64,000 nucleotides of DNA from Marmoricola sp. URHB0036 (GTDB lineage: Bacteria; Actinomycetota; Actinomycetes; Propionibacteriales; Nocardioidaceae), in the NCBI RefSeq assembly GCF_000426045.1, contig NZ_AUEP01000013.1, positions 1 through 64,000 on the forward strand, in the 5' to 3' direction. Of this stretch, positions 1,324-14,998 are shown one piece after another (the stretch's first letter is position 1; each line of letters begins with the position of its first letter). The notes under the pieces were generated by a model. It did not search any database, was not told where the DNA came from, and was given only the letters and a program-made list of their open reading frames with translations. The position numbers and the translations under genes are program-made.

Positions 1324-2016
1324 ATGTGTGCTGACTGCAGCGGCCCCACCATCAGTCGCCGCCGCGCACTGTGGGTGCCACCCGCCGTGGTCGGTGCCAC
1401 CCTGCTGGGCGCTTCGCCGGCGGAGGCCGCCACGCGGAAGGTTCCGCTGCTGCGACGCTCCGCATGGGACGCACGTCCCGCGACCAAGCCCTTTGTCCGC
1501 CATCGGATCAGCCACATCACCATCCACCACAGCGGCGTCATCCTGCGCGACAACCGGACCGCGCCCGCGCAGCTACGCACATTTCAGGCGGACCATCAGG
1601 CGCGGGGGTGGCCTGACATCGCCTATCACCTGCTGATCGACCGGCATGGCAACGTCTACCAGGGTCGCCCGATATGGGCGGTGGGCGACACCAACACGGA
1701 CTACAACCCGCGCGGGCACCTACTGGTCATGGCGCTGGGCAACTTCGAGGAGCAGGCTGTCTCGACGGCCCAGTTCAGCGCCCTGCTCAACGTGTTGGCC
1801 TGGGGAAGCTCCCGTTTCGGCATCGCTCCGGCCGCGATTCGCGGTCACCGGGCGTATGCCTCGACACTCTGCCCGGGTGCCGACCTGCGGCGCCTCATCT
1901 TCAACGGCACAGTGCGGCGTCGTGTACGACGGCGCCGGGGACACGTGACGATGCGGGCCCTGAGCGTGAGCGCCGGCAGAGCGCGGGCCACACGGATCGA
2001 GAACGGGACCGATTGA
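1324..2016 (+). CDS. Tat-exported peptidoglycan recognition protein / N-acetylmuramoyl-L-alanine amidase
   Basis: This 230-residue protein is predicted to cleave the amide bond between N-acetylmuramic acid and L-Ala in peptidoglycan outside the membrane. Residues 1-36 form a signal with a twin-arginine stretch (SRRRALW), a hydrophobic core and an A-E-A-A cleavage region, so Tat export is likely. Residues ~43-195 match an Amidase_2/PGRP domain: ITIHHSG carries the first zinc His, AYHLLIDRHGNVYQGR the central strand, and IRGHRAY with STLCPG the second His and the Cys. The Arg-rich tail after residue 200 is not part of the domain. A GGAG motif lies about 8 bases before the start. It could act as a cell-wall hydrolase or turnover enzyme. 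Confidence 0.85.
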   Translation: MCADCSGPTISRRRALWVPPAVVGATLLGASPAEAATRKVPLLRRSAWDARPATKPFVRHRISHITIHHSGVILRDNRTAPAQLRTFQADHQARGWPDIAYHLLIDRHGNVYQGRPIWAVGDTNTDYNPRGHLLVMALGNFEEQAVSTAQFSALLNVLAWGSSRFGIAPAAIRGHRAYASTLCPGADLRRLIFNGTVRRRVRRRRGHVTMRALSVSAGRARATRIENGTD

Positions 2017-2258
2017 GCGAATCGAGACCGTCGGTGGAGTGCATGGAGCCCATGGAGTGACGAACGGCCACCCCGCGCTGTCGACACGGGGGGAGCCGAG
2101 ATGCGCGGGGCGGCCGCAGGTCCAGTCTGCCTTGCATCTCAGAACCTGGGACGGTCCGGTCTAGAGAGCCGTGATCCTCACGGCCTTCCCGGGTACCGGC
2201 CGTACGGGTGAGGGAGCTGTGTCGGTGATCGGGGGGCCGCAGCACTCCTAGCTCGTGG

Positions 2259-2290
2259 AACCGCCTCGGCCCATCAGTGCCGGGGCGGTT
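2259..2290. terminator. Strong hairpin between convergent genes
   Basis: AACCGCCTCGGC pairs with GCCGGGGCGGTT around an 8-base loop, giving a 12-bp stem with one G.U wobble. It lies between the ends of the convergent amidase gene (2016) and the stressosome operon (2352), so a bidirectional terminator is the simplest reading. No long T-tract follows, as is common in high-GC actinobacteria. The rest of 2017-2351 holds no gene I can support. Confidence 0.6.
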
Positions 2291-2351
2291 CTGCTGCACC
2301 TGTGCCCAGCGGGGGCGATGTCGGCGCCCCGACCGGTGCGTCACCCACTCT

Positions 2352-2642
2352 TCAGGAGCCGCTGAGGAAGCTCCGCTGAGTCATGTCATACGTGGCGAGC
2401 GCTTCGCCGAAGAACTGAGAGGCGCTCGTCACGACGCTGCCGAGCTCTTCTCTCTCCGTGTCTTGCAGGATCTCGACCAGGACCTCGTGGTGAATCCGTG
2501 ACAGGTCGAGAATGCTGAGCCCCTCCGTCACGGCCCAGCGACCGATCACGTACGCCGTGTGGAGAGGGGGCTCGTCGGTCCGGACCAGGTAGCGCAAGAG
2601 ACCGGTCTTGTAGTCACGTTTCAAGTCCGCCAACCGAGTCAT
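2352..2642 (-). CDS. Stand-alone RsbU N-terminal-like domain protein
   Basis: This 96-residue, all-helical protein resembles the N-terminal domain of the phosphatase RsbU (PF08673 type): MTRLADLKRDYKTGLLRYLV, then AYVIGRWAVTEGLSILDLSR and HHEVLVEILQ. In Bacillus that domain is the docking site for the kinase RsbT. Here the PP2C phosphatase half is entirely absent. The gene is last in the operon and its ATG overlaps the rsbS stop (ATGA). By inference it could bind the RsbT-like domain of the sigma fusion as an adaptor or a competitor of the stressosome. Family assignment is from the sequence pattern only. Confidence 0.72.
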   Translation of the reverse strand: MTRLADLKRDYKTGLLRYLVRTDEPPLHTAYVIGRWAVTEGLSILDLSRIHHEVLVEILQDTEREELGSVVTSASQFFGEALATYDMTQRSFLSGS

Positions 2643-3049
2643 GGCGCTCCCCGGAAAGGAGGAGAGGCCGGTGCCGAAGGTGTTGATGTGTGGCGCCCCA
2701 GATACGCCAGACCCTCTTCGAGGTCCAGTGCCGTGTGCATGGAATCCGCGTGGATGCCGAGCTCGACCATGGCGAAGGCAACGTCGGGCTGAATGCCCAC
2801 GATGACGGTGAGCGCCCCGCGCAGCCGGGACATCTCGGCGATGTTGCCCAGGGTTCGCGAGCCGAACGAGTCCAGGACGTCAAGGGCGCCGACATCGATG
2901 ATCACACCGCTCGACCGGTGCTGACCGATCTCCTGGATGAGGTCGTGCTGGAACCTCTCCATCTGGGCATCGTCCAGCGCAGTATGGATCGATGCGAGCA
3001 GGTACCGCCCCTGCCGCAGTATGGAAACCAGTGCCGGCCCCGTGTCCAC
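2639..3049 (-). CDS. rsbS: RsbS-type stressosome scaffold (STAS domain)
   Basis: This is a 136-residue single STAS-domain protein. In known stressosomes RsbS forms the core with RsbR and holds RsbT until phosphorylated by it. The motif GVIIDVGALDVLDSF contains Ser61 in the D-S-F context that matches the phosphorylated serine of Bacillus RsbS. Its start is a GTG immediately after the rsbR TAA stop, and its end overlaps the next gene by 4 bp, so translation is probably coupled. The ~20-residue C-terminal tail (STPSAPASPPF) is longer than usual and probably disordered. Confidence 0.9.
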   Translation of the reverse strand: MDTGPALVSILRQGRYLLASIHTALDDAQMERFQHDLIQEIGQHRSSGVIIDVGALDVLDSFGSRTLGNIAEMSRLRGALTVIVGIQPDVAFAMVELGIHADSMHTALDLEEGLAYLGRHTSTPSAPASPPFRGAP

Positions 3050-3928
3050 TTACTCCACCAACCCGTCCTGCCGACGCATGGTGTAGCCGATCAACCGCTC
3101 GGCCTCTTCGAGGCCGCCCTGAAGGTCGCCGATGGTGTTCATCTTGCTCAGGTCGACTCCGATGGTGACCAGTGTCTGAGCGATTTCCGGCGACAGCCCG
3201 GTGATGATCACGCTCGCTCCCATCAGGCGGGACGCGTCCACCGTGCGCACCAGGTGATTGGCCACCGCCTCGTCGACGTCAGGTGCACCGGTGATGTCGA
3301 TGACCACCACCTTGGCGCGGTGCGTCCGGATCCCGATCAGGAGCTGCTCGGTCAGCTGTCGTGCCCGCTCGGTGTCCAGGACGCCGACGATGGGCAGGAT
3401 CAGCAGCCGCTCTCGAACCGGCAGCACGGGAGTGGACAGCTCACGGATGGCATCCTGCTGTTGCCGGATGACCCGCTCCCGCTCATCGACGAAACTGACT
3501 GCCACGGTGTTGGCGATTCTGTTGGCTGCGGGTTCGTACGCATCCAGTACGCGGTTCAGCAGTGCGAAGTCCTGCTGGTACTTCTTGAAGAGCGATCGGG
3601 CCAGCGCGTCGCGCAGCAGAAGCACGATGCCGACTACTTCCTGGGTCTCGACGCCGCGCGGGATGATGCGTTCCGACAGGTCCCGCGCGTAGTGCTGCAG
3701 TGCCTCTACACTGCCCGTCTCCAGCACCTCGACGTAGTTGTCGTAGACGGACGTGGTCTCCAGCTCCATCTCCTGCGGCGACATCGCCTCGAGCAGGTGC
3801 GCGTCGTGGATCCTGGTGGCCCATTCCTGGCGCAGGCGTGTGCGGTGCTCACGCAGGTGTGCGACCAGCTGTGGGAGCAGCTCCTGCTCCTCGTCGCTGG
3901 CTGCCTGAGCTCGCGATGCCTCATTCAT
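3050..3928 (-). CDS. rsbR: RsbR-type stressosome sensor/co-antagonist
   Basis: This protein has 292 residues. Residues ~15-160 are a helical sensor domain and residues ~172-285 a STAS domain. Both RsbT target threonines of Bacillus RsbRA have counterparts: Thr213 in VIDITGAPDVD and Thr252 in GLSPEIAQTLV. The N-terminal domain has no obvious heme ligand that I can assign, so its signal is unknown. It overlaps the upstream sigma-RsbT gene by 8 bp and abuts rsbS, giving the order rsbT-like, rsbR, rsbS. It should build the mixed RsbR/RsbS particle that sequesters the kinase domain. Confidence 0.92.
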   Translation of the reverse strand: MNEASRAQAASDEEQELLPQLVAHLREHRTRLRQEWATRIHDAHLLEAMSPQEMELETTSVYDNYVEVLETGSVEALQHYARDLSERIIPRGVETQEVVGIVLLLRDALARSLFKKYQQDFALLNRVLDAYEPAANRIANTVAVSFVDERERVIRQQQDAIRELSTPVLPVRERLLILPIVGVLDTERARQLTEQLLIGIRTHRAKVVVIDITGAPDVDEAVANHLVRTVDASRLMGASVIITGLSPEIAQTLVTIGVDLSKMNTIGDLQGGLEEAERLIGYTMRRQDGLVE

Positions 3929-5012
3929 GGGGTGTTCCTTCCTGTCGCCACTTGGTCATGGTCACGGTGGTGCCTCGTCCCAGTTCGGAGACCAGGGTGA
4001 ATTCGTCCATCAGGCGGCGAGCGCCGGGCAGGCCCATCCCCAACCCGTTGTAGGTGCTGTACCCGTCCCTCAGTGCGCGGTCGACGTCAGTGATGCCCGG
4101 TCCGGTGTCGCTCGCTGTCACGCGGAGACCCGGCCGTGGGTCGTCCAGCATCTCGATGAGCACCACTCCCTTGCCGGCGAACCTGACGATGTTGCGCGCT
4201 ATCTCGGAGACAGCCGTCGCAAGGATGGTCTGATCCGTCCCAGAGAATCCCAGGCGGGATGCCAGCTCACGTGCCTGCTTGCGCGCCAGGACCACGTCTG
4301 GTGCGTCGTGGATCGGGACTCGCACCTCGGTGTCACTTTGTTGCCCACGGCTCATCAGCGGAAGGCTCAGGTCCGCGCACACATCGCATTCCAACAAGTG
4401 CCGTGCTGCGTGCACCTCCCGTTGTCGGCGACGCTCTCCGCTGGACAAGGCCAACAGCACTGGCCGGCACTGGGGAGTCGGCGCACTGATGTCGTGCAGG
4501 GCCAACAAGTACTCGACTCGCAGTCGGGCGCGCGTCCGGTTGAGCTGAGCAGCGACAGCACCGGCAGTCAGTCCCAGGTCGTCGCCCAGCACCCGCGTGT
4601 CGAGCCCGGACACCTCGTGGGCCAGGAGGGTCTGACGCTCCCTCTCGGACAATCGCTCCAAGGCGGTGGTGATGGCCTTCTCGTCCTCCTGCCGCAGCAG
4701 CTCGTCGTCGGGCGCCTCGACAGGGGAAAGGTCGAGGACACGATGTTGGTTGCGACGATGCCGGTCGCGCTCCTTCCACATGGAGGCCACGACATTTCTC
4801 GCAGTGACGATCGCATAGGGCTCGAGCGTCCCGGGCTCGATCCGGTGGGCAGCGCCCAGCACCCTGACCAAGGTCTCCTGGACGAGATCCTCGGCGGCTG
4901 AGGGATCGCTCACGCGTGCGCGGATGACGCGACGCACGACCGGGATGAGCGCCGTGATGTCAGGGTCCTCGCCGGGGTCCGCCGAGGCATCGGCCGACTC
5001 CATCACACCCAT
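3921..5012 (-). CDS. ECF-type sigma factor fused to zinc-binding segment and RsbT-like switch kinase
   Basis: This 363-residue fusion leads the stressosome operon. Residues ~18-92 are sigma-70 region 2 (SAAEDLVQETLVRVLGAA, then TARNVVASMWKERDRHRR). Residues ~112-172 are region 4 with its helix-turn-helix (LSERERQTLLAHEVSGL, GDDLGLTAGAVAAQL). H201-x3-H205-x3-C209-x2-C212 resembles the zinc site of anti-sigma factors. Residues ~232-356 are an RsbT/GHKL kinase with N-box TAVSEIARNIVRFA, DTGPGI and GLGMGLPGARRLMDEF. The domains are in one uninterrupted frame, and rsbR and rsbS follow directly. By inference the stressosome binds the RsbT part and so silences the sigma part; stress-triggered phosphorylation would free it to bind RNA polymerase. 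A second ATG four codons in is an alternative start. Confidence 0.93.
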   Translation of the reverse strand: MGVMESADASADPGEDPDITALIPVVRRVIRARVSDPSAAEDLVQETLVRVLGAAHRIEPGTLEPYAIVTARNVVASMWKERDRHRRNQHRVLDLSPVEAPDDELLRQEDEKAITTALERLSERERQTLLAHEVSGLDTRVLGDDLGLTAGAVAAQLNRTRARLRVEYLLALHDISAPTPQCRPVLLALSSGERRRQREVHAARHLLECDVCADLSLPLMSRGQQSDTEVRVPIHDAPDVVLARKQARELASRLGFSGTDQTILATAVSEIARNIVRFAGKGVVLIEMLDDPRPGLRVTASDTGPGITDVDRALRDGYSTYNGLGMGLPGARRLMDEFTLVSELGRGTTVTMTKWRQEGTPHE

Positions 5013-5484
5013 GCCTGAACACTACGGCTGATCCGACGCCGAGCACCAAGACGGGGAGTTGACAAGGACGTCGGAGGACGGCGCCCGATGCGTCCCTCCC
5101 TGGCCGCTCGGGCACCGTCTTCCCGGACACGGCACAGGTCCTCCCCGGAAACCCGATCCTGTGACCGCGGCGTCCCTGGCGGAGGGACCTCACGACCTCA
5201 GGACACCAGGTGACCGTCCCGACCCGTGCCAGTCCAGAGAGGCATGGAGCTGGATCGCCGAGTCCTTGCATGGTCAACCGTCGCCCTTCCGCCTCTCGTA
5301 GATGTAGATGCCTTCGGGCACACCAGATGACGGAGATCCGCCGAGAAAGATGTCGCCGCGCTCGAGAGGTCACGTCGATCGCACAGGACTTCCGGCGGAG
5401 CTGCTGCGCCTGCACAGGAGGGTGGACACCGAGAAACAACGCAACCGACACGTCATGCACGGCTGACGGGGGCGTGTCACAGGT
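5013..5484. other. Intergenic region between divergent sigma-RsbT and ANTAR genes
   Basis: This 472-bp stretch separates two divergent genes and should hold both promoters. I see no convincing ORF, RNA gene or strong palindrome, and no promoter match good enough to place. The length leaves room for regulation of the stressosome operon. Confidence 0.4.
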
Positions 5485-5895
5485 ATGAGCCAGCGATCTT
5501 CTGAGGAGGAGAGGGGCGTACCCGCCCCCGAGACCTCCCTGACCCGAAGGACCGCGACGGTGCCGGGGCCGAGCACCAGGCGTTCCCGCCCCGGCCGTCC
5601 GCCCCTGCCTTCGCGCGGAGAGCTCGGCCTGGTGGCTGAGCTACCTGCCCACTCCTCCGGAAACCCGCACGACGAGCTGGCCCGGATCACGCAGGAGAAC
5701 GCACAGCTCCACGAAGCGCTTCGGTCCCGCACCGTGCTCGGCCAGGCAACCGGCCTGCTCATGGCTGCGCTCCGCCTGTCCCCGGACGAGGCGTTCGCGG
5801 CGTTGACGAAGATGTCGTCCCACGAGAACCGTAAGGTGCGCGACGTTGCCGCCGGTGTCGTCGCACGGCGAACGCGACCCGGGCTCGGGAGATGA
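5485..5895 (+). CDS. ANTAR-domain protein, probable RNA-binding antiterminator
   Basis: This encodes 136 residues. The N-terminal ~50 residues are Pro/Arg-rich and probably disordered. Residues ~60-128 form a helical coiled coil and three-helix ANTAR domain (DELARITQENAQLHEALR, TVLGQATGLLMAALRLSPDEAF, AALTKMSSHENRKVRDVA). ANTAR domains bind paired RNA hairpins and prevent transcription termination. There is no attached sensor such as GAF or a receiver domain, so it may answer to a partner or be constitutive. It lies between the stressosome and sigF-like genes, which suggests a stress role. Confidence 0.78.
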   Translation: MSQRSSEEERGVPAPETSLTRRTATVPGPSTRRSRPGRPPLPSRGELGLVAELPAHSSGNPHDELARITQENAQLHEALRSRTVLGQATGLLMAALRLSPDEAFAALTKMSSHENRKVRDVAAGVVARRTRPGLGR

Positions 5896-6007
5896 TGCAC
5901 CCACCAGCCCTGTCGGAGCTCATGCGTCTCCTGCCCGAGACCTGGCCCGACCGGCCTCGGCCCGCAACCCGACGCATCAGGGTCGTCCGGACCAGCGAGG
6001 ACACACC

Positions 6008-6295
6008 ATGATCCCCGTCGTGGCGCCGCCGCTCGTCGAGCCACCCGTGCGCCTGCGGCGGTTCAGGGCCCATCGGCAGCCCGAGGGCCGTGCGAAGCTG
6101 CCTGGCCAGCTCACCCACCTCACCGAGGAGCCGAGCGGTGATGACCGACCACCGTCATCTTGGCTGTCGCGTCGGAGCCGGGAACGCCGACGGGCTCCAC
6201 GCCGCGCGGCGCCGGCCGTGCTGATGTGCCTGAGTGCAGCGGTCGCCCTTGCAGCCGCCATGGTCCGACGCAAGCAAGCCGGTGCCTCGACATGA
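6008..6295 (+). CDS. Possible small basic single-span membrane protein
   Basis: This weakly supported 95-residue frame starts at an ATG (MIPVVAPPLVEPP). It contains a very Arg-rich middle and one hydrophobic segment (AVLMCLSAAVALAAAMV) followed by RRK, the topology of a C-terminally anchored protein. The interval would otherwise be a ~450-bp gap between the ANTAR and DUF4235 genes. In related actinobacteria that position often holds small DUF3618 or holin-like membrane proteins, but I see no clear match. There is no good Shine-Dalgarno sequence. Confidence 0.3.
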   Translation: MIPVVAPPLVEPPVRLRRFRAHRQPEGRAKLPGQLTHLTEEPSGDDRPPSSWLSRRSRERRRAPRRAAPAVLMCLSAAVALAAAMVRRKQAGAST

Positions 6296-6353
6296 ATCAC
6301 GGTGACATCAGAACGAGGACGCATCCCGAGCCTCGTGTGGAGGTGAAACGACA

Positions 6354-6599
6354 GTGAGGTTCCTGCGCAGTCTGTTGGGGGGCCTGCTGTGGCTGTTGGC
6401 CAGCCTCGAGGCCGAGGAGACACTCCAGCTGCCGGCACGCGACGCCACCAAGACCGAGAAGGGGTCGGCCAAGGCGAAGGAAGACGTAGCGCGGGGACGG
6501 CAGCTTCGCCTGAGCCGAGGAGAGAGTCAGGAAACGGGCCACGGCACGGGAGACACGGGCACGGGCCCAGCGAAGGAGAAGTCCGATGGCACGAACTGA
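6354..6599 (+). CDS. Small hypothetical protein upstream of DUF4235 gene
   Basis: This predicted 81-residue protein starts at a GTG preceded by GGAGG about 10 bases upstream. It has a short hydrophobic N-terminus (FLRSLLGGLLWLLASL) followed by a charged Lys/Glu/Gly-rich tail, so it could be membrane-associated by its N-terminus. It overlaps the DUF4235 gene by 14 bp, which fits a translationally coupled pair. I do not recognise a family. Confidence 0.5.
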   Translation: MRFLRSLLGGLLWLLASLEAEETLQLPARDATKTEKGSAKAKEDVARGRQLRLSRGESQETGHGTGDTGTGPAKEKSDGTN

Positions 6600-6885
6600 G
6601 AAGCGATCCAGCAAGTCGGCGAAGATCCTCTACCAGCCTGTGGGGCTCATCAGCAGCGTGGTGGCGGGCGTCGTCGCCGGCCAGGTGTTCAAGCAGGTGT
6701 GGAAGCACGCCACCCCCGGTGATCAGGAAGACGCACCGAAGGCCCTGGAGTCGGAGTACAACCTGCGTGAGGTGCTCATCGCGGCACTCGTGCAAGGCGC
6801 CATCTTCGCAGCGGTCAAGGCACTGGTGAACCGAGGTGGTGCCAGGGCGTTCGAGCGCTGGACCGGCGAGTGGCCCGGGGATTGA
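6586..6885 (+). CDS. DUF4235 small membrane protein
   Basis: This 99-residue protein matches the DUF4235 pattern common in actinobacteria: KILYQPVGLISSVVAGVVAG, QVFKQVWKHATP and a second hydrophobic segment EVLIAALVQGAIFAAVKALV followed by ARAFERWTG. There are two membrane-inserted helices with a conserved loop between them. The function of the family is unknown; genes of this type often sit with stress-related or envelope genes. Here it lies just before the SigB/SigF-family gene. AAGGAG precedes the start. Confidence 0.82.
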   Translation: MARTEKRSSKSAKILYQPVGLISSVVAGVVAGQVFKQVWKHATPGDQEDAPKALESEYNLREVLIAALVQGAIFAAVKALVNRGGARAFERWTGEWPGD

Positions 6886-7032
6886 TCGCCGATGTGCGCA
6901 GGCCATCGCGATGTACCGCCAGGTTTGGGTGGTCGCGCCGCAGGGCAGGAACAGTGATACCCGCGGGGGTGGGCGGGTCGATGCTCACGCCGTCGAGCCC
7001 AGGCGGCGTGCCAGGCAACCGAAGGCGCTGAC

Positions 7033-7836
7033 ATGACGTCGTTGGTAGCAGTTGAGCGCAGGAAAAGCAGGGAGACGCGAGCAAGGCGCACCCAGGAGCT
7101 GTTCGGTCGCGTGCACGGGACCGACGACTCCGAGGAGCGTCGTCGGCTGCTCGACCAGATCATCGTCCTCAACATGACGATGGCCGATGCCGTCGTCTCC
7201 CGCTACACGGGCAGAGGGGTCGCCCGGGAAGACCTGCGTCAGGTCGCCTACGCGGCTCTCACCCGAGCAGCGCAGCGTTTCGATCCCACGCAGGGCAGCG
7301 AGTTCGTCGCGTTCGCGGTCCCGACCATGCGAGGCGAGGTCCGCAAGTACTTCCGCGACCACGCCTGGATGGTCCGTCCGACTCGGCGTATCCAGGAGCT
7401 CCAGCCACTGATGAACCGCGCACAGGACGAGCTGTGGCACGAGCTCGGACGATCCCCTCGTCCCAGCGAGATCGCACATCGCATCGGGGAACCACGCGAG
7501 GTCGTGGTGGAGGCACTGGGTACCGAAGGTTGCTACGCGCCATCGTCCTTGGACAGGCCGGTCAATGCGGACGGCTCCGGCCCCCCGTTGGGCGAGCTTC
7601 TGAGCGCAACCGACGATGCCCGGGACCTGGCCGAGGCCCGCGTCGTCCTGCTGCCGGTCATCCGCCGGCTCAGCGAGCGAGACCGCCGGATCCTGGCGTT
7701 GCGGTTCGTGCACGGGCTGACGCAACGCGAGATAGCAGCGGACATCGGTGTCACCCAGATGCAGGTCTCTCGTCTCCTGAACCGCATCTACCGTGACCTG
7801 CGTCTCGGCATAGGCGGTCTCGATGACAAGGTCTGA
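7033..7836 (+). CDS. SigB/SigF-family alternative sigma factor
   Basis: This is a 267-residue group-3 sigma factor. Region 2 is NMTMADAVVSRYTGRGVARE with DLRQVAYAALTRAAQRFDP and the strand-opening segment AFAVPTMRGEVRKYFRDHAW. Region 3 covers ~115-185 (LGRSPRPSEIAHRIGEP). Region 4 covers ~205-258 (LSERDRRILALRFVHGLTQR, EIAADIGVTQMQVSRLL). It should direct RNA polymerase to promoters of general stress or developmental genes, probably of the GTTT-GGGTA type. No anti-sigma/anti-anti-sigma pair is adjacent, so its control is probably encoded elsewhere or linked to the nearby stressosome. The gas-vesicle operon begins ~100 bp downstream on the same strand. Confidence 0.95.
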   Translation: MTSLVAVERRKSRETRARRTQELFGRVHGTDDSEERRRLLDQIIVLNMTMADAVVSRYTGRGVAREDLRQVAYAALTRAAQRFDPTQGSEFVAFAVPTMRGEVRKYFRDHAWMVRPTRRIQELQPLMNRAQDELWHELGRSPRPSEIAHRIGEPREVVVEALGTEGCYAPSSLDRPVNADGSGPPLGELLSATDDARDLAEARVVLLPVIRRLSERDRRILALRFVHGLTQREIAADIGVTQMQVSRLLNRIYRDLRLGIGGLDDKV

Positions 7837-10694: not shown

Positions 10695-11105
10695 GTGACT
10701 GTTCAGACCACGCAGCGCCGCGGCGGCGGCTATCTCGAGCGACCCGCCCCGAGCGGGCTCGCCGACGTCCTCGAGATCATCCTCGACAAGGGCATCGTCA
10801 TCGACATCTACCTGCGCGTCTCGCTGGTGGGTATCGAGCTGCTCACCATCGATGCGCGCATCGTCATCGCGAGCGTCGACACCTACCTGCGCTTCGCGGA
10901 GGCGACCAACCGCCTCGACCTCTACGAGCACGGTGGCAAGGACCTGACCGAGGTTGTCGGCGACCTGCAGGAGAGCGGCGCCGCCAAGAAGGTCGGTGGA
11001 GCCGTCAAGGGGGTCAAGAAGGCGATCAAGGGCGGCAGCGACGACGACGACCGCTCGTCGAGTCGCAGCAGGTCCTCGCGCCGACGTCAGACCGAGGATG
11101 CCTGA
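10695..11105 (+). CDS. gvpA: Gas vesicle structural protein GvpA
   Basis: This is a 136-residue shell protein. Residues ~18-78 carry the GvpA core ([40 protein letters not shown]), which packs into the ribbed vesicle wall. Actinobacterial GvpA proteins carry an extra C-terminal tail; here it is Lys/Ser/Arg-rich after residue ~95. Start is a GTG with GAAAGG 8 bases upstream. It is the only full GvpA core with the [15 protein letters not shown] pattern of the main subunit; the other two family members in the operon look like GvpJ and GvpS. Confidence 0.95.
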
Positions 11106-11856
11106 GGCTCACGAGCGCGCCCCCGAGACCGGGTACTACGTCTACGGCGTGGTCCCGGCCCCCGGGGGCTCGCCCCTGCCACTGCAGGGCATCGACCAGG
11201 CTGACGTCGAGTACGTCGCGTACGAGGAGGTGGCCGCAGCGGTGTCGGTCATCGCTCTCGACCGCCCTCCCGGACGCCGGGCCGAGCTGATGGCGCACAA
11301 CTCGGTCGTCGACGCGCTGGCCAACGCCACCACGGTGCTGCCGGTGAAGTTCGGCTCGATCATGGCGGACCGCGACAGCGTCATCCACGACCTGCTCGCC
11401 CCGTCGCACGATCGTTTCGCGGACCTCCTGGCCAACCTGGCGGGCTGTCGCCAGTTCAACCTGAGGGCCACCTACGTGCAGGACCAGGTCCTGGCCGAGG
11501 TGGTGCAGAGCAATCCGGAGATCGCCGAGCTCAGACGACGGACGCGGGAGCTGCCCGAGGGCACGATGCACCCCGACCTGGTGCGGCTGGGTGAGCTCGT
11601 CTCGCGCGTGCTCGAGGACAAGCGCGACGACGACGCCCGCACCATCCTGGACACGATCCGACCGTTTGCGCTGGACGAGGCGCGTCGGCAAGGTGGGGGA
11701 GTGGACCACTTGCTGGACCTGGCCGTGTTGGTCGAGGACGAGCGGATCGCCGAGTTCGAGGACGGCCTCGAGCAGCTGGCCGAGGCGTTGCACGAGCGTG
11801 TGCGTCTGCGCCTGGTCGGACCGGTGGCGCCGTACGAGTTCGCGGGCGCCGGCTGA
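11098..11856 (+). CDS. gvpF: Gas vesicle protein GvpF (GvpL/F family)
   Basis: This encodes 252 residues from the ATG at 11098, which overlaps the gvpA stop by 8 bp; the longer open frame from 10954 is Arg-rich and unlikely. The N-terminus has the family signature [10 protein letters not shown]. It also carries [19 protein letters not shown] and ends [12 protein letters not shown], as GvpF/L proteins do. GvpF binds GvpA and is thought to prevent its premature aggregation and help initiate vesicles. A second family member, gvpL, lies downstream. Confidence 0.93.
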
Positions 11857-12104
11857 TGGGCCTCATCAAGGGCATCCTCGGTCTGCCGACAGCACCGCTC
11901 CGCGGCGTCGTCGCGGCGGCCGAGCAGGTGCGCCAGCACGCCGAGGAGGTCTTCTACGACCCGGTGGCGATCCGTCAGCAGCTGGAAGAGGTCGAGCGCC
12001 AGCGGGCCGAGGGCATCCTGAGTGATGCTGAAGCAACGATGTGGGAGGACGAGCTCGTCGAGCGGCTGTTGGTCGCGCGGGACCGTCCCAGAAGGGAGCA
12101 GTGA
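11856..12104 (+). CDS. gvpG: Gas vesicle protein GvpG
   Basis: This 82-residue helical protein begins with the GvpG hallmark GLIKGILGLPTAPLRGVVAA and continues EVFYDPVAIRQQLEEVERQR with an EGILSDAEA motif. GvpG is a minor vesicle protein that binds GvpF/L and is needed for assembly. Its ATG overlaps the gvpF stop by one base and its own stop overlaps gvpO, so the operon is tightly coupled. Confidence 0.95.
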   Translation: MGLIKGILGLPTAPLRGVVAAAEQVRQHAEEVFYDPVAIRQQLEEVERQRAEGILSDAEATMWEDELVERLLVARDRPRREQ

Positions 12105-12544
12105 TGGCAGCGAGCACGTCTCGGTCATCCGGCACCAAGAAATCGAGCACGCGCAAGACCGCCGCCAAGAAGAGCAGCGACGAGGGAAACGAGGACCAGA
12201 GCACCACCACCAAGAAGAGCGGCAGCAGCTCGACGAGGAAGGCGTCCCCGCGCTCGCAGAGTGCGCCGCGCGCAGAGTCGCGTCCGGCCGCGCGCGCCAG
12301 CCAGGTCGCCGCCAAGGCTGCCGGTGAGCTGCTCGAGCTGACCGGCAAGGCCGTCGAGGGCGTCACCGGACTGGAGAGCACGGACGACGGCTGGACCGTG
12401 CAGGTCGAGGTGGTCGAGATGCGCCGCATCCCGGACACCACCGACGTGCTGGCGCTCTACGAGGTCAGCACCGACAAGCAGGGTTCGCTGCTCGGCTACC
12501 GGCGGCTGCGCCGCTACGCCCGGGGAACACCGGGTGACGACTGA
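12104..12544 (+). CDS. gvpO: Gas vesicle protein GvpO
   Basis: This encodes 146 residues from the ATG at 12104 overlapping the gvpG stop. The first ~65 residues are a disordered Ser/Lys/Arg-rich extension. Residues ~70-140 match the GvpO domain (AGELLELTGKAVEGVTGLES, GWTVQVEVVEMRRIPDTTDV, LALYEVSTDKQGSLLGY). GvpO is required for vesicle formation in haloarchaea and conserved in actinobacterial clusters. It ends with Arg-rich RRLRRYARG. Confidence 0.93.
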   Translation: MAASTSRSSGTKKSSTRKTAAKKSSDEGNEDQSTTTKKSGSSSTRKASPRSQSAPRAESRPAARASQVAAKAAGELLELTGKAVEGVTGLESTDDGWTVQVEVVEMRRIPDTTDVLALYEVSTDKQGSLLGYRRLRRYARGTPGDD

Positions 12545-12900
12545 TGACCGAGGCTGCTGGCACCCCCGCCACCTCTCGTCCCTACTCCAGCTCGGTGGAG
12601 CGCAGCTCCTACGGACCTGCGCCCGCGAACCTCGCCGACATCCTCGAGCGGGTGCTCGACAAGGGCATCATCATCGCGGGTGACATCAAGGTGAACCTGC
12701 TCGACATCGAGCTCCTGACGATCAAGATCAGGCTGCTGATCGTCTCGGTCGACAAGGCAGCCGAGATGGGCATCGACTGGTGGCGCAACGATCCGATGCT
12801 CAGCTCGAGCGAGCAGGGACTGGCCGACGAGAACCGCGAGCTGAGGCGCCGACTCGAGGAGCTGGAGGCCGGCTCGGGGGGAGACAGGGCCGATGCCTGA
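12544..12900 (+). CDS. gvpJ: Gas vesicle protein GvpJ (minor GvpA-family protein)
   Basis: This 118-residue GvpA-fold protein has the GvpJ-type core ANLADILERVLDKGIIIAGD, then IKVNLLDIELLTIKIRLLIV and SVDKAAEMGIDWW. The W-W after the core and the acidic helical tail ([14 protein letters not shown]) distinguish it from the main shell protein. It probably helps nucleate or shape vesicles. The start overlaps the gvpO stop by one base. Confidence 0.9.
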   Translation: MTEAAGTPATSRPYSSSVERSSYGPAPANLADILERVLDKGIIIAGDIKVNLLDIELLTIKIRLLIVSVDKAAEMGIDWWRNDPMLSSSEQGLADENRELRRRLEELEAGSGGDRADA

Positions 12901-13660
12901 GTCGCAACCCGAGCACGGTCGCTACCTGTTCGCCTTCGCTCGAGGGCTGGATCCAGCGCGGCTGGTGGGTGTCCTGGGCCTTCGTGGCGCGCCACTCGAG
13001 GTGGTCGAGCATCGGGACCTGCAGGCGGTCGTCTGCTCGGTGGACCTCGAGGAGTTCGGCGAGGACCGGCTCAAGGAGCACCTCGAGGACATGGAGTGGC
13101 TCGAGGAGGTCGCCCGCACGCACCACGATGTCGTCTACGCCGTCTCCGAGGTAGGTGCCGTCGCCCCCACGCGGCTGGTCACCATCTGTTCCGACGACGC
13201 CAGCGTGCGGGGACGCGTCGAGACTCTGCACACCCAGCTGTCCGAGGCGCTCAGCCGTGTCGAGGGGCGACGCGAGTGGAGCGTCAAGGTCTACGCAACG
13301 AGGCCGGCGCCACCGGAGACCGTTGACGCGGGGCGACCGGCGTCCGGCGCGGCGTACCTCCAGCGCAAGCGCGAGCAGGCGGCCCAGCGGCGGTCGACCG
13401 GCGACCAGCACCTTCGAGAGGCCGACGAGATCCACCAGACGCTGACGCGTTCGGTGGTCGCGACCAGGGTGCTGCAACCGCAGGACCCTCGGCTGACCGG
13501 CAGGGCCGACACCATGATCCTCAACGGTGCCTACCTCGTCCCCACGGAGGAGACCGACGGCTTCCGCGCCGTGGTGTCCCGTCTGGCCGAGCTCAACCCG
13601 ACGCTGGAGATCGAGCTGAACGGTCCGTGGCCGCCCTACTCCTTCGCCACGCTCGACTGA
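12893..13660 (+). CDS. gvpL: Gas vesicle protein GvpL (second GvpL/F family protein)
   Basis: This 255-residue second GvpL/F protein starts GRYLFAFARGLDPARL and has the conserved core VVCSVDLEEFGEDRLKEHLE, THHDVVYAVSEVGAVAPTRL and a C-terminal GPWPPYSFATLD. Between ~145 and ~185 is an extra charged helical segment with YLQRKREQAAQRR, as expected of GvpL. It begins inside the last codons of gvpJ (8-bp overlap). Confidence 0.93.
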   Translation: MPESQPEHGRYLFAFARGLDPARLVGVLGLRGAPLEVVEHRDLQAVVCSVDLEEFGEDRLKEHLEDMEWLEEVARTHHDVVYAVSEVGAVAPTRLVTICSDDASVRGRVETLHTQLSEALSRVEGRREWSVKVYATRPAPPETVDAGRPASGAAYLQRKREQAAQRRSTGDQHLREADEIHQTLTRSVVATRVLQPQDPRLTGRADTMILNGAYLVPTEETDGFRAVVSRLAELNPTLEIELNGPWPPYSFATLD

Positions 13661-13661
13661 C

Positions 13662-13898
13662 ATGAGCGAGATCCAGAGCTCCGTCGGGGGACAGCTCTCG
13701 GTGCGGGATGCCGGCCAGATCTCGCTCGTGGACCTTCTGGATCGACTCCTCGGCACCGGTGTCGTGCTGGCCGGTGACGTGCTGATCTCCCTGGCTGGGG
13801 TGGACCTGGTGCAGATCCGGTTGCACGCGCTCATCACGACCGTGAGGGCGGACATGCCGGTTCCGCGCAACCTGCAAGGAGGAGGCACAGATGGCTGA
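13662..13898 (+). CDS. gvpS: Gas vesicle protein GvpS (short GvpA-family protein)
   Basis: This encodes 78 residues. The core (QISLVDLLDRLLGTGVVLAG, DVLISLAGVDLVQIRLHALI) is a GvpA fold with the sequence features of the minor protein placed between gvpL and gvpK in Streptomyces. It starts one base after the gvpL stop and overlaps gvpK by 8 bp. The AGGAGG ribosome site for gvpK lies within its last codons. Confidence 0.9.
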   Translation: MSEIQSSVGGQLSVRDAGQISLVDLLDRLLGTGVVLAGDVLISLAGVDLVQIRLHALITTVRADMPVPRNLQGGGTDG

Positions 13899-14190
13899 GA
13901 ACGCCCGTCGACTGCTGACCCAGCGGCTCGAGACCGACCCGGACTCCGTGGAGCGCGACCTGTTCAAGCTCGTGCTCACCATCATCGAGCTGGTCCGCCA
14001 GCTGATGGAGGCCCAGGCGCTGCGCCGGGTGGAGGAGGGGGACCTCACCGACGACCAGGTGGAGGCCCTCGGGCTCGGGCTGAGTCGGCTCGAGGAGGCG
14101 ATGGAGGACCTGAAGTCGCGCTACGACCTCACCACGGAGGACCTGAACATCGACCTCGGTCCGCTCGGCACCCTGCTCTCCGAGCCCTGA
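13891..14190 (+). CDS. gvpK: Gas vesicle protein GvpK
   Basis: This 99-residue helical protein has the GvpK signature DPDSVERDLFKLVLTIIELV, RQLMEAQALRRVEEGDLTDD and ends ERM-like with LSRLEEAMEDLKSRYDLTTE, DLNIDLGPLGTLL. GvpK is a small accessory protein required for vesicle formation in several organisms. It closes the operon. Confidence 0.95.
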   Translation: MAENARRLLTQRLETDPDSVERDLFKLVLTIIELVRQLMEAQALRRVEEGDLTDDQVEALGLGLSRLEEAMEDLKSRYDLTTEDLNIDLGPLGTLLSEP

Positions 14191-14315
14191 CGACGTCGGG
14201 AAGGGTGCTGGCACACCACGACGTCCGCCTGCGCGTGCGCCGTACCTTTCGGTAACTTTTGTGACTATTCAGTATGGCGTTACGGGCACTCCGCTGGGGG
14301 TAGTGGTTTCGGAAT

Positions 14316-14334
14316 GCCGGGGAAACACCCCGGC
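14316..14334 (+). promoter_or_regulatory. Hairpin just upstream of the ribosome site
   Basis: GCCGGGG pairs with CCCCGGC around the loop AAACA, immediately before the GAGGGAGG ribosome site of the gene at 14351. It is too close to the start to end the gvp operon usefully, so a leader hairpin affecting translation or mRNA stability is more likely. Function is inferred only. Confidence 0.4.
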
Positions 14335-14350
14335 GAGGGAGGTTCTGGAA

Positions 14351-14998
14351 ATGACCCACAGCAACGCCATCAGGCGGCTGGGCCCGACGGGGCTCATCGC
14401 CGTCGTACTGGCACTGTCGATGACTCTGTTCGGAGCGGCGGTGGGCAGCGCATCAGCCGCTACCGCCCCAGGAAGGATCCACGCCAAGGCCAAGCACGTG
14501 AAGATCACCGCGCCGGTGCGCGGGGTGACCGCTGGCGGCCGCGTCGTGCGAGCGGTGTTCGTTCCCAAGCACTTCCAGACCACCGCGGGAGTGCTGACGG
14601 CGCGAGGGATCCTGAAGGGTCGCATCGTGCGCCCGGGTCCCGACCTGAAGTTCCTCAAGCGTGGAGTGGTCATGAAGGTGGCCTCGGTCGACGGTCACCG
14701 GGCAACGGCGCCGGCCGCGCGGGCGGCGGCCTTCCCGCCCACCCCGCCGGCGGGCGCGTGCAACGTGCTCAACCTGGTGCTGGCTCCGCTGGACCTGAAC
14801 ATCCTGGGGCTGCAGGTGCACCTGAACCGGGTGGTGCTCAACGTCATCGCCCAGTCGGGTGCGGGACAGCTGCTGGGCAACCTGCTGTGCTTCGTGGCGG
14901 GTCTCCTCGATGGGGGCAGCCCGTTGTCCAACCTGCTCGGCCGGGTCACCACCCTGCTGAACCGGATTCTCGGGGCCCTCGGAGCGCTGCGCGCCTGA
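14351..14998 (+). CDS. Secreted actinobacterial protein of unknown function
   Basis: This encodes 215 residues from the ATG at 14351, chosen because GAGGGAGG lies ~9 bases upstream; the frame is open from 14261. Residues 1-37 are a Sec signal peptide (TGLIAVVLALSMTLFGAAVG, cleavage near SASAA). The C-terminal half carries the conserved pattern CNVLNLVLAPLDLNILGLQV, HLNRVVLNVIAQSGAGQLLG, NLLCFVAGLLDGG, with two cysteines that could form a disulfide. I know this pattern from many actinobacterial secreted proteins, but no function is established to my knowledge. Confidence 0.82.
   Translation: MTHSNAIRRLGPTGLIAVVLALSMTLFGAAVGSASAATAPGRIHAKAKHVKITAPVRGVTAGGRVVRAVFVPKHFQTTAGVLTARGILKGRIVRPGPDLKFLKRGVVMKVASVDGHRATAPAARAAAFPPTPPAGACNVLNLVLAPLDLNILGLQVHLNRVVLNVIAQSGAGQLLGNLLCFVAGLLDGGSPLSNLLGRVTTLLNRILGALGALRA

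Follow-up and report, generated by a model that had tools for sequence, protein, structure and literature searches.

In Bacillus, the kinase RsbT activates RsbU in a relay that leads through RsbV and RsbW to the sigma factor SigB, and the stressosome is reset by RsbX. In the described stressosomes that are linked to the N-terminal domain of RsbU (RsbU_N), released RsbT docks on an RsbU_N that is joined to an effector, as it does on RsbU itself (PMC12143880); in other modules of the rsbRSTX type, the output is a histidine kinase or a diguanylate cyclase (PMC9237108, PMC12143880). Here we report that in some soil actinobacteria the switch protein of the stressosome (that is, an RsbT-type kinase) is joined to a sigma factor in one polypeptide, a layout that is conserved across genomes, and we describe its operon in Marmoricola sp. 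URHB0036 (contig NZ_AUEP01000013.1, positions 1 to 64,000; hereafter the window, that is, the whole stretch of 64,000 nucleotides that was analysed and to which coordinates refer). The operon shares with RsbRST–RsbU stressosomes its STAS-domain proteins RsbR and RsbS, the position of the RsbS phosphoserine, an RsbT-type kinase, an RsbU_N domain and its compactness; it differs from them in that the effector (that is, the sigma factor) sits on RsbT, RsbU_N stands alone and no RsbX was found. We class it as a new stressosome variant, with new output wiring in which RsbT bears the effector.

Sigma factors of the extracytoplasmic function (ECF) groups ECF52 and ECF53, such as SCO4117, carry a fused zinc finger and a membrane anchor (PMC5826349, PMC8999054) and, like the fusion, have sigma region 2, sigma region 4 and a zinc-binding anti-sigma (ZAS) segment directly in one chain; the sigma half of the fusion groups with membrane-type proteins that we liken to ECF52/ECF53 by architecture and not by group assignment. 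The fusion differs from them in that it has no transmembrane helix and bears the RsbT kinase in place of the extracytoplasmic part. Mycobacterium tuberculosis fusions of the Rv1364c type (phosphatase, anti-sigma and antagonist domains; PMC12143880) likewise hold partner-switch parts in one polypeptide, but Rv1364c, as described in that source, has neither a sigma factor nor a stressosome kinase. A first reading of the window made from its letters and reading frames alone (hereafter the sequence-only reading) knew of no described system of this design; our open-literature searches, which did not take in the 2021 ECF classification and the 2005 survey of RsbRST modules, likewise found no description of a sigma factor–RsbT fusion or of a stand-alone RsbU_N in the text accessible to them.

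Domain architecture of the fusion

The fusion gene (called sigT here; 3921..5012, minus strand), delimited by open-reading-frame call, Pfam matches and an alignment of 20 sequences, encodes 363 amino acids in a single open reading frame of 363 codons with no in-frame stop before the terminal one. Pfam places Sigma70_r2 at residues 20–84 (4761..4955, minus strand; 4.7e-12), Sigma70_r4_2 at residues 113–164 (4521..4676, minus strand; 5.6e-08) and HATPase_c_2 at residues 239–354 (2.6e-11), each exceeding the curated cut-off, so the claim of the sequence-only reading that one continuous frame carries ECF regions 2 and 4 and a GHKL kinase is upheld. Sigma70_r3 is absent from the matches, the combination of regions 2 and 4 without region 3 being that of ECF (group 4) factors, and the protein matches the sigma70-ECF superfamily (2.5e-20); D42, Q45 and E46 are among the region-2 residues invariant in all 20 aligned fusions.

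Between the sigma and kinase parts, the same reading had noticed an H-x3-H-x3-C-x2-C segment. The string is present in the window protein, supplied by H201, H205, C209 and C212, but as a conserved ligand set it is rejected: position 201 is His in 1, Asp in 17 and Gly in 2 of the aligned fusions, whereas all 20 share C182, H205, C209 and C212 without exception; the conserved motif is therefore C-x22-H-x3-C-x2-C, of ZAS type. This ligand set was found in every fusion and membrane-type relative scanned. Hx3Cx2C is the signature of zinc-binding class I anti-sigma domains (PMC7406223), and the segment (residues 182–222; 4347..4469, minus strand) shares with those of the ChrR and RsrA type this motif on a small helical segment; the fusion differs in having its ZAS segment in cis on the sigma factor and in apparently missing helix 4, which in known class I domains is part of a dual sigma-binding interface (PMC7406223). 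Helix 4 seems to be missing because, in an AlphaFold model of the fusion, the short helices of the segment stop at residue 222 and the kinase follows from about residue 229. The layout of the protein is sigma2–sigma4–ZAS–RsbT, and the ZAS-type, anti-sigma-like segment would be an intramolecular control layer, one that the sequence-only reading had left out of account.

The kinase domain (residues 229–355; 3948..4328, minus strand), identified by Pfam, alignment, profile scans and Foldseek, is assigned to the RsbT type because it is 43–58% identical to stand-alone RsbT-type proteins in searches of genome samples, and those of them that were scanned by profile adjoin RsbS. Its top Foldseek matches are SpoIIAB and RsbW, at about 26% identity (the figure given for SpoIIAB), and no RsbT entry was among the PDB sequence matches of the fusion. 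We reject an anti-sigma kinase like RsbW or SpoIIAB, given the identity of only about 26% to SpoIIAB and neighbours that are rsbR, rsbS and RsbU_N. The N-box (E270, R273 and N274), the G1 box (D302, with GPGI at 304–307) and the G2 box (G323, G325 and G330) are invariant in 20 of 20 sequences, as are R244 and R248, which align with R19 and R23 of B. subtilis RsbT. In RsbT, R19 and R23 are reported to be buried in the interface with RsbU (PMC12143880). Fused C-terminally to the sigma–ZAS part, the kinase is not a free-standing small protein like RsbT; it would nevertheless be predicted to phosphorylate RsbS and RsbR, and to switch to RsbU_N, in the manner of RsbT.

The operon and its conservation

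The fusion heads an operon with rsbR and rsbS, as the sequence-only reading had it; the genes are tightly coupled and Pfam finds STAS in both. Overlooked at that time was a fourth gene, which encodes a stand-alone RsbU_N. All four lie on the minus strand, and their junctions are, in order, an 8-nucleotide overlap, a stop codon directly abutting a start codon, and a 4-nucleotide overlap. The rsbR-like gene (3050..3928; 292 amino acids) has its STAS domain at residues 167–259, above the cut-off, and an RsbRD_N-like N terminus below it, and its product matches solved RsbR chains (best E 2.1e-36); the rsbS-like gene (2639..3049; 136 amino acids) encodes a STAS protein with Ser61 at the position of RsbS Ser59, which matches the RsbS of 6jhk (E 2.3e-24). 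RsbR and RsbS, which match solved stressosome chains in sequence, may form a megadalton core.

The RsbU_N gene (2352..2642; 96 amino acids) has a PF08673 match (2.5e-11) and no C-terminal PPM phosphatase. A profile of 14 stand-alone RsbU_N proteins finds 2j70 and 1w53 (E 0.005–0.006), that is, the N-domain and the kinase-recruitment domain of B. subtilis RsbU, and an AlphaFold model of the window protein has four helices (predicted local distance difference test score 90), with 1w53 as its best PDB fold match (Foldseek; probability 1.00 but E 0.11). The window genome has one RsbU_N match only, and none of its three SpoIIE phosphatases lies on the window contig or near RsbU_N; with the fusion as query, it gave no second match to the kinase half. 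As the host has no RsbU phosphatase bearing the RsbT-docking domain, the Bacillus RsbT–RsbU–RsbV–RsbW relay cannot run through one and, judged by homology, a Bacillus-type relay through RsbU is unavailable in this host.

Of the 149 genomes sampled from the family, 14 carry the fusion; in wider samples it is present in 12 of 391 genomes (order), 4 of 394 (class) and 4 of 396 (phylum). The samples share genomes, that of the window being in all of them; with each genome counted once, the total is 29 distinct genomes from five families (f1, f2, f10, f34 and f89) and two classes, f89 lying outside the class. Fusion type was read from match spans, three genomes (G065, G772 and G804) being seen in part, and two more named contigs with a fusion (loci L030 and L036) were not matched to a genome handle. 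Twenty congeners listed in the family sample gave no fusion match, and the distribution is therefore patchy. Full-length relatives are 50–71% identical and include single-contig genomes (G344, G541, G583, G626 and G686). When the fetched loci were scanned with profiles of the sigma–ZAS, RsbT, RsbR, RsbS and RsbU_N parts, rsbR was the next gene in 29 of the 30 distinct fusion loci with a visible next gene, and the order fusion–rsbR–rsbS–RsbU_N could be traced to the end of RsbU_N in 23 distinct loci (window included). The search that the sequence-only reading had proposed, for sigma–HATPase fusions beside STAS genes, thus returned many, and its worry that a sequencing error had joined two genes, or that no conserved homologs exist, is set aside by these full-length relatives. 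We are practically certain that neither an assembly or sequencing error nor chance made the junction, which is the same in 29 genomes, several of them single-contig, with a conserved ZAS linker.

In every one of the 24 distinct fusion loci in which its end is visible, RsbU_N stands alone, ending 1–31 amino acids past the domain; on this ground, and with no SpoIIE on the window contig, we reject the idea that it is the remnant of a broken RsbU. Operons with a stand-alone RsbT and RsbU_N (n = 8) differ: 7 of the 8 have 262–670 further residues after RsbU_N. These form a SpoIIE phosphatase in four loci (L051, L127, L131 and L132) and a histidine kinase in two (L128 and L129); in L035 they are PAS-histidine-kinase-like (by eye, unscanned). 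The eighth locus (L130) has, to the eye, the look of a frameshift: RsbU_N lies in a short frame, some way beyond which comes a SpoIIE-like one. With RsbU_N alone beside the fusion and effector-tailed beside a stand-alone RsbT, the effector therefore sits reciprocally on either the kinase or the docking domain; its move onto the kinase and the reduction of RsbU_N to a docking domain go in step in 24 of 24 distinct loci with both visible. Locus L051 holds rsbR (76% identity), rsbS, rsbT, a gene for an RsbX-like phosphatase and a full RsbU, an arrangement that may be the ancestral one. In four further stand-alone-RsbT operons of the same family (L024–L027), RsbT is followed by more HATPase-like frames, and no RsbU_N was seen in the short DNA covered.

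The phosphorylation sites are kept unequally. A serine occupies the RsbS Ser59 position in 38 of 38 aligned rows (duplicates and stand-alone-RsbT loci included). In RsbR, the Thr171- and Thr205-type positions are phosphosites in Bacillus and Listeria, Thr205 corresponding to Thr209 of Listeria. In an alignment that does not include L116–L124, counted with duplicate loci taken once and one gapped, truncated row (L044) left out, the Thr205 position holds Glu (15 loci), Gln (2) or His (1) in the 18 distinct fusion loci, whereas all 5 stand-alone-RsbT loci have Thr or Ser there; the Thr171 equivalent is Ser or Thr in 14 of the 18. Glu and Ala are also found at the Thr205 position among the solved RsbR chains. 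The release step on RsbS looks intact, and the second phosphorylation of RsbR seems to have been lost. A second RsbS-like paralogue with a conserved serine lies near some of the fusion operons (L045, 12843–13259; L036, 9301–9783; L033, 340–747).

Origin of the sigma half

Ten genomes encode the same sigma–ZAS half (37–53% identity) without a kinase, followed by 156–230 residues with a hydrophobic segment. Maximum hydropathy over 19 residues is 1.68–2.56 in these membrane-type relatives as against 0.58–1.25 in the fusions, which have no strongly hydrophobic stretch after the ZAS segment (that is, no transmembrane or extracytoplasmic part) and carry the kinase domain there instead. In a tree of sigma halves rooted on an ECF factor of the host, the 24 fusion halves form one group, with a support of only 0.64, in the midst of the membrane-type sequences. 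In the tree of kinase domains (midpoint rooting), those of the fusions are not one clade, and a single origin of the kinase half is therefore not shown. The simplest reading, with modest support, is that RsbT replaced the membrane sensor. The fusion suggests that a soluble switch module can take the place of the sensor end in membrane-anchored ECF–ZAS sigma factors. PRC-barrel/DUF2382 genes recur beside sigma genes of both the membrane and the fusion type (L033, 2579–1815 and 1676–897; L052, L050, L126 and L023), and some of these loci have mechanosensitive-channel-like genes too.

A candidate promoter motif in relatives

A promoter-like motif, CGTCATG-N15-YGTCTTCA (one form being CGTCATG-N15-CGTCTTCA), clusters beside the fusion operons of relatives. 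It was first noticed near PRC-DUF2382 genes, which in some loci neighbour both fusion and membrane-type genes: a de novo dyad search upstream of nine of them, itself at or barely above the level of shuffles, supplied the lead. The pattern GTCATG.{14,16}[CT]GTC.TC has 12 distinct matches in the fetched loci as against 1 in one shuffle, and 11 of these served as training sites for a matrix, the twelfth (L025, a stand-alone-RsbT locus, near the locus end) being excluded. In a leave-one-out scan, sites scoring above 18 turned up in 13 of the 30 loci with a fusion, 1 of the 10 of the membrane type, none of 12 with a stand-alone RsbT and none of 40 reversed controls, the bases scanned being 334,547, 72,674 and 105,305 for the three kinds of loci, several of which are related. 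What follows 14 of the 18 listed sites after 31–101 nucleotides is, by eye, a frame for a small secreted protein or one related to it, for a PRC-DUF2382 or mechanosensitive-channel-like protein, or for the fusion; the other 4 sites are not so placed. In L018, the site precedes the fusion gene itself.

Counted over whole genomes, exact sites number 9 in 15 genomes with the fusion and 1 in 15 without it; allowing up to one mismatch gives 24 and 7, respectively, and 14 of the 24 lie, as read from coordinates, within about 3 kb of the operon. The reversed pattern gave 9 in all 30. Because the operon-proximal sites are for the most part the ones from which the motif was derived, only the clustering and the controls count here, and the leave-one-out scan is the fairer measure. 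Taken together, these results are good evidence that in relatives the sigma half does function as a sigma factor and has a small, local regulon; for the window itself they are none. The fusion is predicted to bind core polymerase and to start transcription at promoters of its own, for which the recurrent motif in relatives is a candidate.

Upstream of the fusion, where a footprint of autoregulation might lie, a possible −10 element (GTAGTGTT; 5018..5025, minus strand; weak) ends 5 nucleotides before the start codon. Strings like it (GTANNST) occur upstream in 17 of 20 relatives, 8–16 nucleotides before the start used in 15 and 50–56 nucleotides before it in 2, some of the positions used as starts not being start codons; a conserved −35 was not seen upstream of the fusion in the 20 loci.

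Proposed model and alternatives

We lean towards a model in which the operon encodes a stressosome with the sigma factor as its client, held by the kinase domain and freed on phosphorylation of RsbS, and with RsbU_N as a second partner. RsbR and RsbS would form the sensor core. In the unstressed cell, this core would grip the RsbT-type kinase domain of the fusion, and the sigma surfaces may in addition be covered by the ZAS segment. Under stress, the kinase domain would phosphorylate RsbS at the Ser59 equivalent, lose affinity and depart, and the freed sigma domain could reach RNA polymerase without the RsbU–RsbV–RsbW relay. RsbU_N would compete with RsbS for the released fusion and, most likely, tie up its kinase domain so that this stays clear of the sigma domain; it may instead work the other way, as a sink that ends the response. 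We infer each of these steps, that is, binding of the fusion, phosphorylation, release, activation of polymerase and the sign of RsbU_N action. On the fuller proposition that the stressosome stores copies of an ECF sigma factor as its kinase subunit and fires them directly at RNA polymerase when RsbS is phosphorylated, with free RsbU_N as the soluble second partner, our judgement is almost evenly balanced and tips just to its side. If it is true, stress sensing and promoter choice would be one phosphorylation step apart, with the output moved from the RsbU to the RsbT side; this would be the shortest stressosome output known to us and a direct transcriptional readout of release, whose trigger and reset could be followed without the RsbU–RsbV–RsbW relay.

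The sequence-only reading had proposed that stressosome release acts directly on RNA polymerase with no partner-switching cascade. An output without the Bacillus relay finds support in the conserved fusion, the retained RsbS serine, the intact kinase motifs and a host that has no RsbU phosphatase with a docking domain; the part about partner switching does not stand, as RsbU_N is present on its own in every locus where it could be seen, and the kinase domain therefore very likely still has two alternative partners.

Several points weigh against the client model, which is a proposal from sequence. The predicted template modelling score of the fusion model, 0.45, is too low for domain packing to be read from it. 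A change of Tyr28 in B. subtilis RsbU is reported to abolish RsbT binding (PMC12143880), yet this position is not Tyr in any of the 14 stand-alone RsbU_N proteins. The window genome has 35 matches at the level of the HATPase_c_2 family. RsbX, which resets the stressosome in Bacillus, is not in the operon, and a search of the same genome with the RsbX-like protein of L051 came back empty (no positive control). The motif was not found in the window genome at up to one mismatch; the two weak matches near the operon, each with three mismatches (5451..5480, plus strand, matching CGTCATG-N15-YGTCTYCA 4 nucleotides before an ANTAR gene that begins at 5485; and 5303..5332, minus strand, upstream of the fusion, with a position weight matrix score of 14.7, the level of shuffled sequence), are within chance, the window having 11 matches in all as against 7.95 expected. 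In relatives, only 10 of the 24 sites in the 15 fusion genomes lie away from the operon, as against 7 in the 15 genomes without the fusion, so that any regulon looks local. Finally, in one locus (L101, genome G804) the contig starts within the fusion gene and RsbU_N comes straight after it, with neither rsbR nor rsbS in between, and the window RsbR as query gave no match in that genome (340 contigs; no positive control). The stressosome is therefore not inseparable from the fusion, and the rule that the fusion always comes with rsbR and rsbS is rejected.

This last locus may hold a minimal pair of fusion and RsbU_N that works without a stressosome, and it shifts the odds slightly away from the client model and towards RsbU_N as the closer partner. 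RsbU_N could then be the main regulator, most likely an inhibitor: the free fusion would be active, RsbU_N would act as an anti-sigma sink, and the stressosome, where there is one, would set only how much fusion is available to RsbU_N. Adjacency in G804 fits a core consisting of the pair, and a titrating inhibitor would be expected to be just such a short, co-expressed docking domain. Ending 1–31 residues past the domain, RsbU_N is without the output domain and the greater part of the linker, the parts through which RsbU transmits activation (PMC12143880). Against this, in characterised systems the active state is RsbT bound to RsbU_N (PMC12143880), and RsbS and RsbR, the known antagonists of RsbT, are in the operon in 29 of the 30 loci with a visible next gene. 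It is because the known active RsbT is the one bound to RsbU that we rank the client model higher, and we hold control chiefly by RsbU_N to be unlikely, if a serious contender.

Control could also be intramolecular, the ZAS segment and the kinase domain together holding the sigma domain until redox-driven zinc release or a nucleotide state opens the protein, with the stressosome as a minor modifier. The invariance of C182, H205, C209 and C212, the resemblance of the fold to the anti-sigma kinases SpoIIAB and RsbW, and the frequent redox linkage of soluble zinc-binding class I anti-sigma domains (PMC7406223) speak for such a switch, but the zinc set is equally present in membrane-type relatives and hence may be structural, and by identity (43–58% to RsbT-type proteins as against about 26% to SpoIIAB) and operon context the kinase is like RsbT rather than RsbW; we think this improbable. 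Still harder to credit is that the sigma part no longer works as such and serves to tether a stressosome kinase to RNA polymerase or DNA. The missing motif in the window genome would fit, but regions 2 and 4 score above the Pfam cut-offs, all 20 aligned fusions keep region-2 residues such as D42, Q45 and E46, and relatives have a recurrent ECF-like motif beside the operon, which leaves this explanation very little room.

Neighbouring genes and other observations

An Rfam scan of window positions 1800–7100 returned nothing. Upstream of the fusion operon, on the opposite strand, lies a gene with an ANTAR domain (5485–5895, plus strand; PF03861, 1.4e-18), of which a clustered relative is found upstream of the L031 operon. 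About 6 kb from the operon there is a gas-vesicle cluster (10695–14187, plus strand; three PF00741, two GvpL_GvpF, GvpO and GvpK), preceded by a gene for a SigB/SigF/SigG-like sigma factor (7033–7836; 216.5 bits, below the NCBIfam cut-off of 234.35). Elsewhere in the same genome, an 890-amino-acid frame with STAS, HATPase and SpoIIE matches (G000:C4:289929-291209) resembles the fused partner-switch protein Rv1364c.

Secreted-looking proteins recur in these neighbourhoods. One without a Pfam family is encoded at 14261–14998 (plus strand) of the window; the CGTCATG motif was not seen upstream of this member (by eye), and its homologues lie beside the fusion operon in L043, L119, L121 and L101, behind the motif in three of these four. 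The L101 stretch (3–1608) consists of the partial fusion, RsbU_N (649–951), a CGTCATG-type motif (965) and then the secreted protein. A further small secreted-looking family (97–122 amino acids) adjoins RsbU_N in L045 (12374–12667, a member with no Pfam match), L049, L028, L030 and L036, and a CGTCATG-type motif precedes it in 4 of these 5 loci, weakly in L030.

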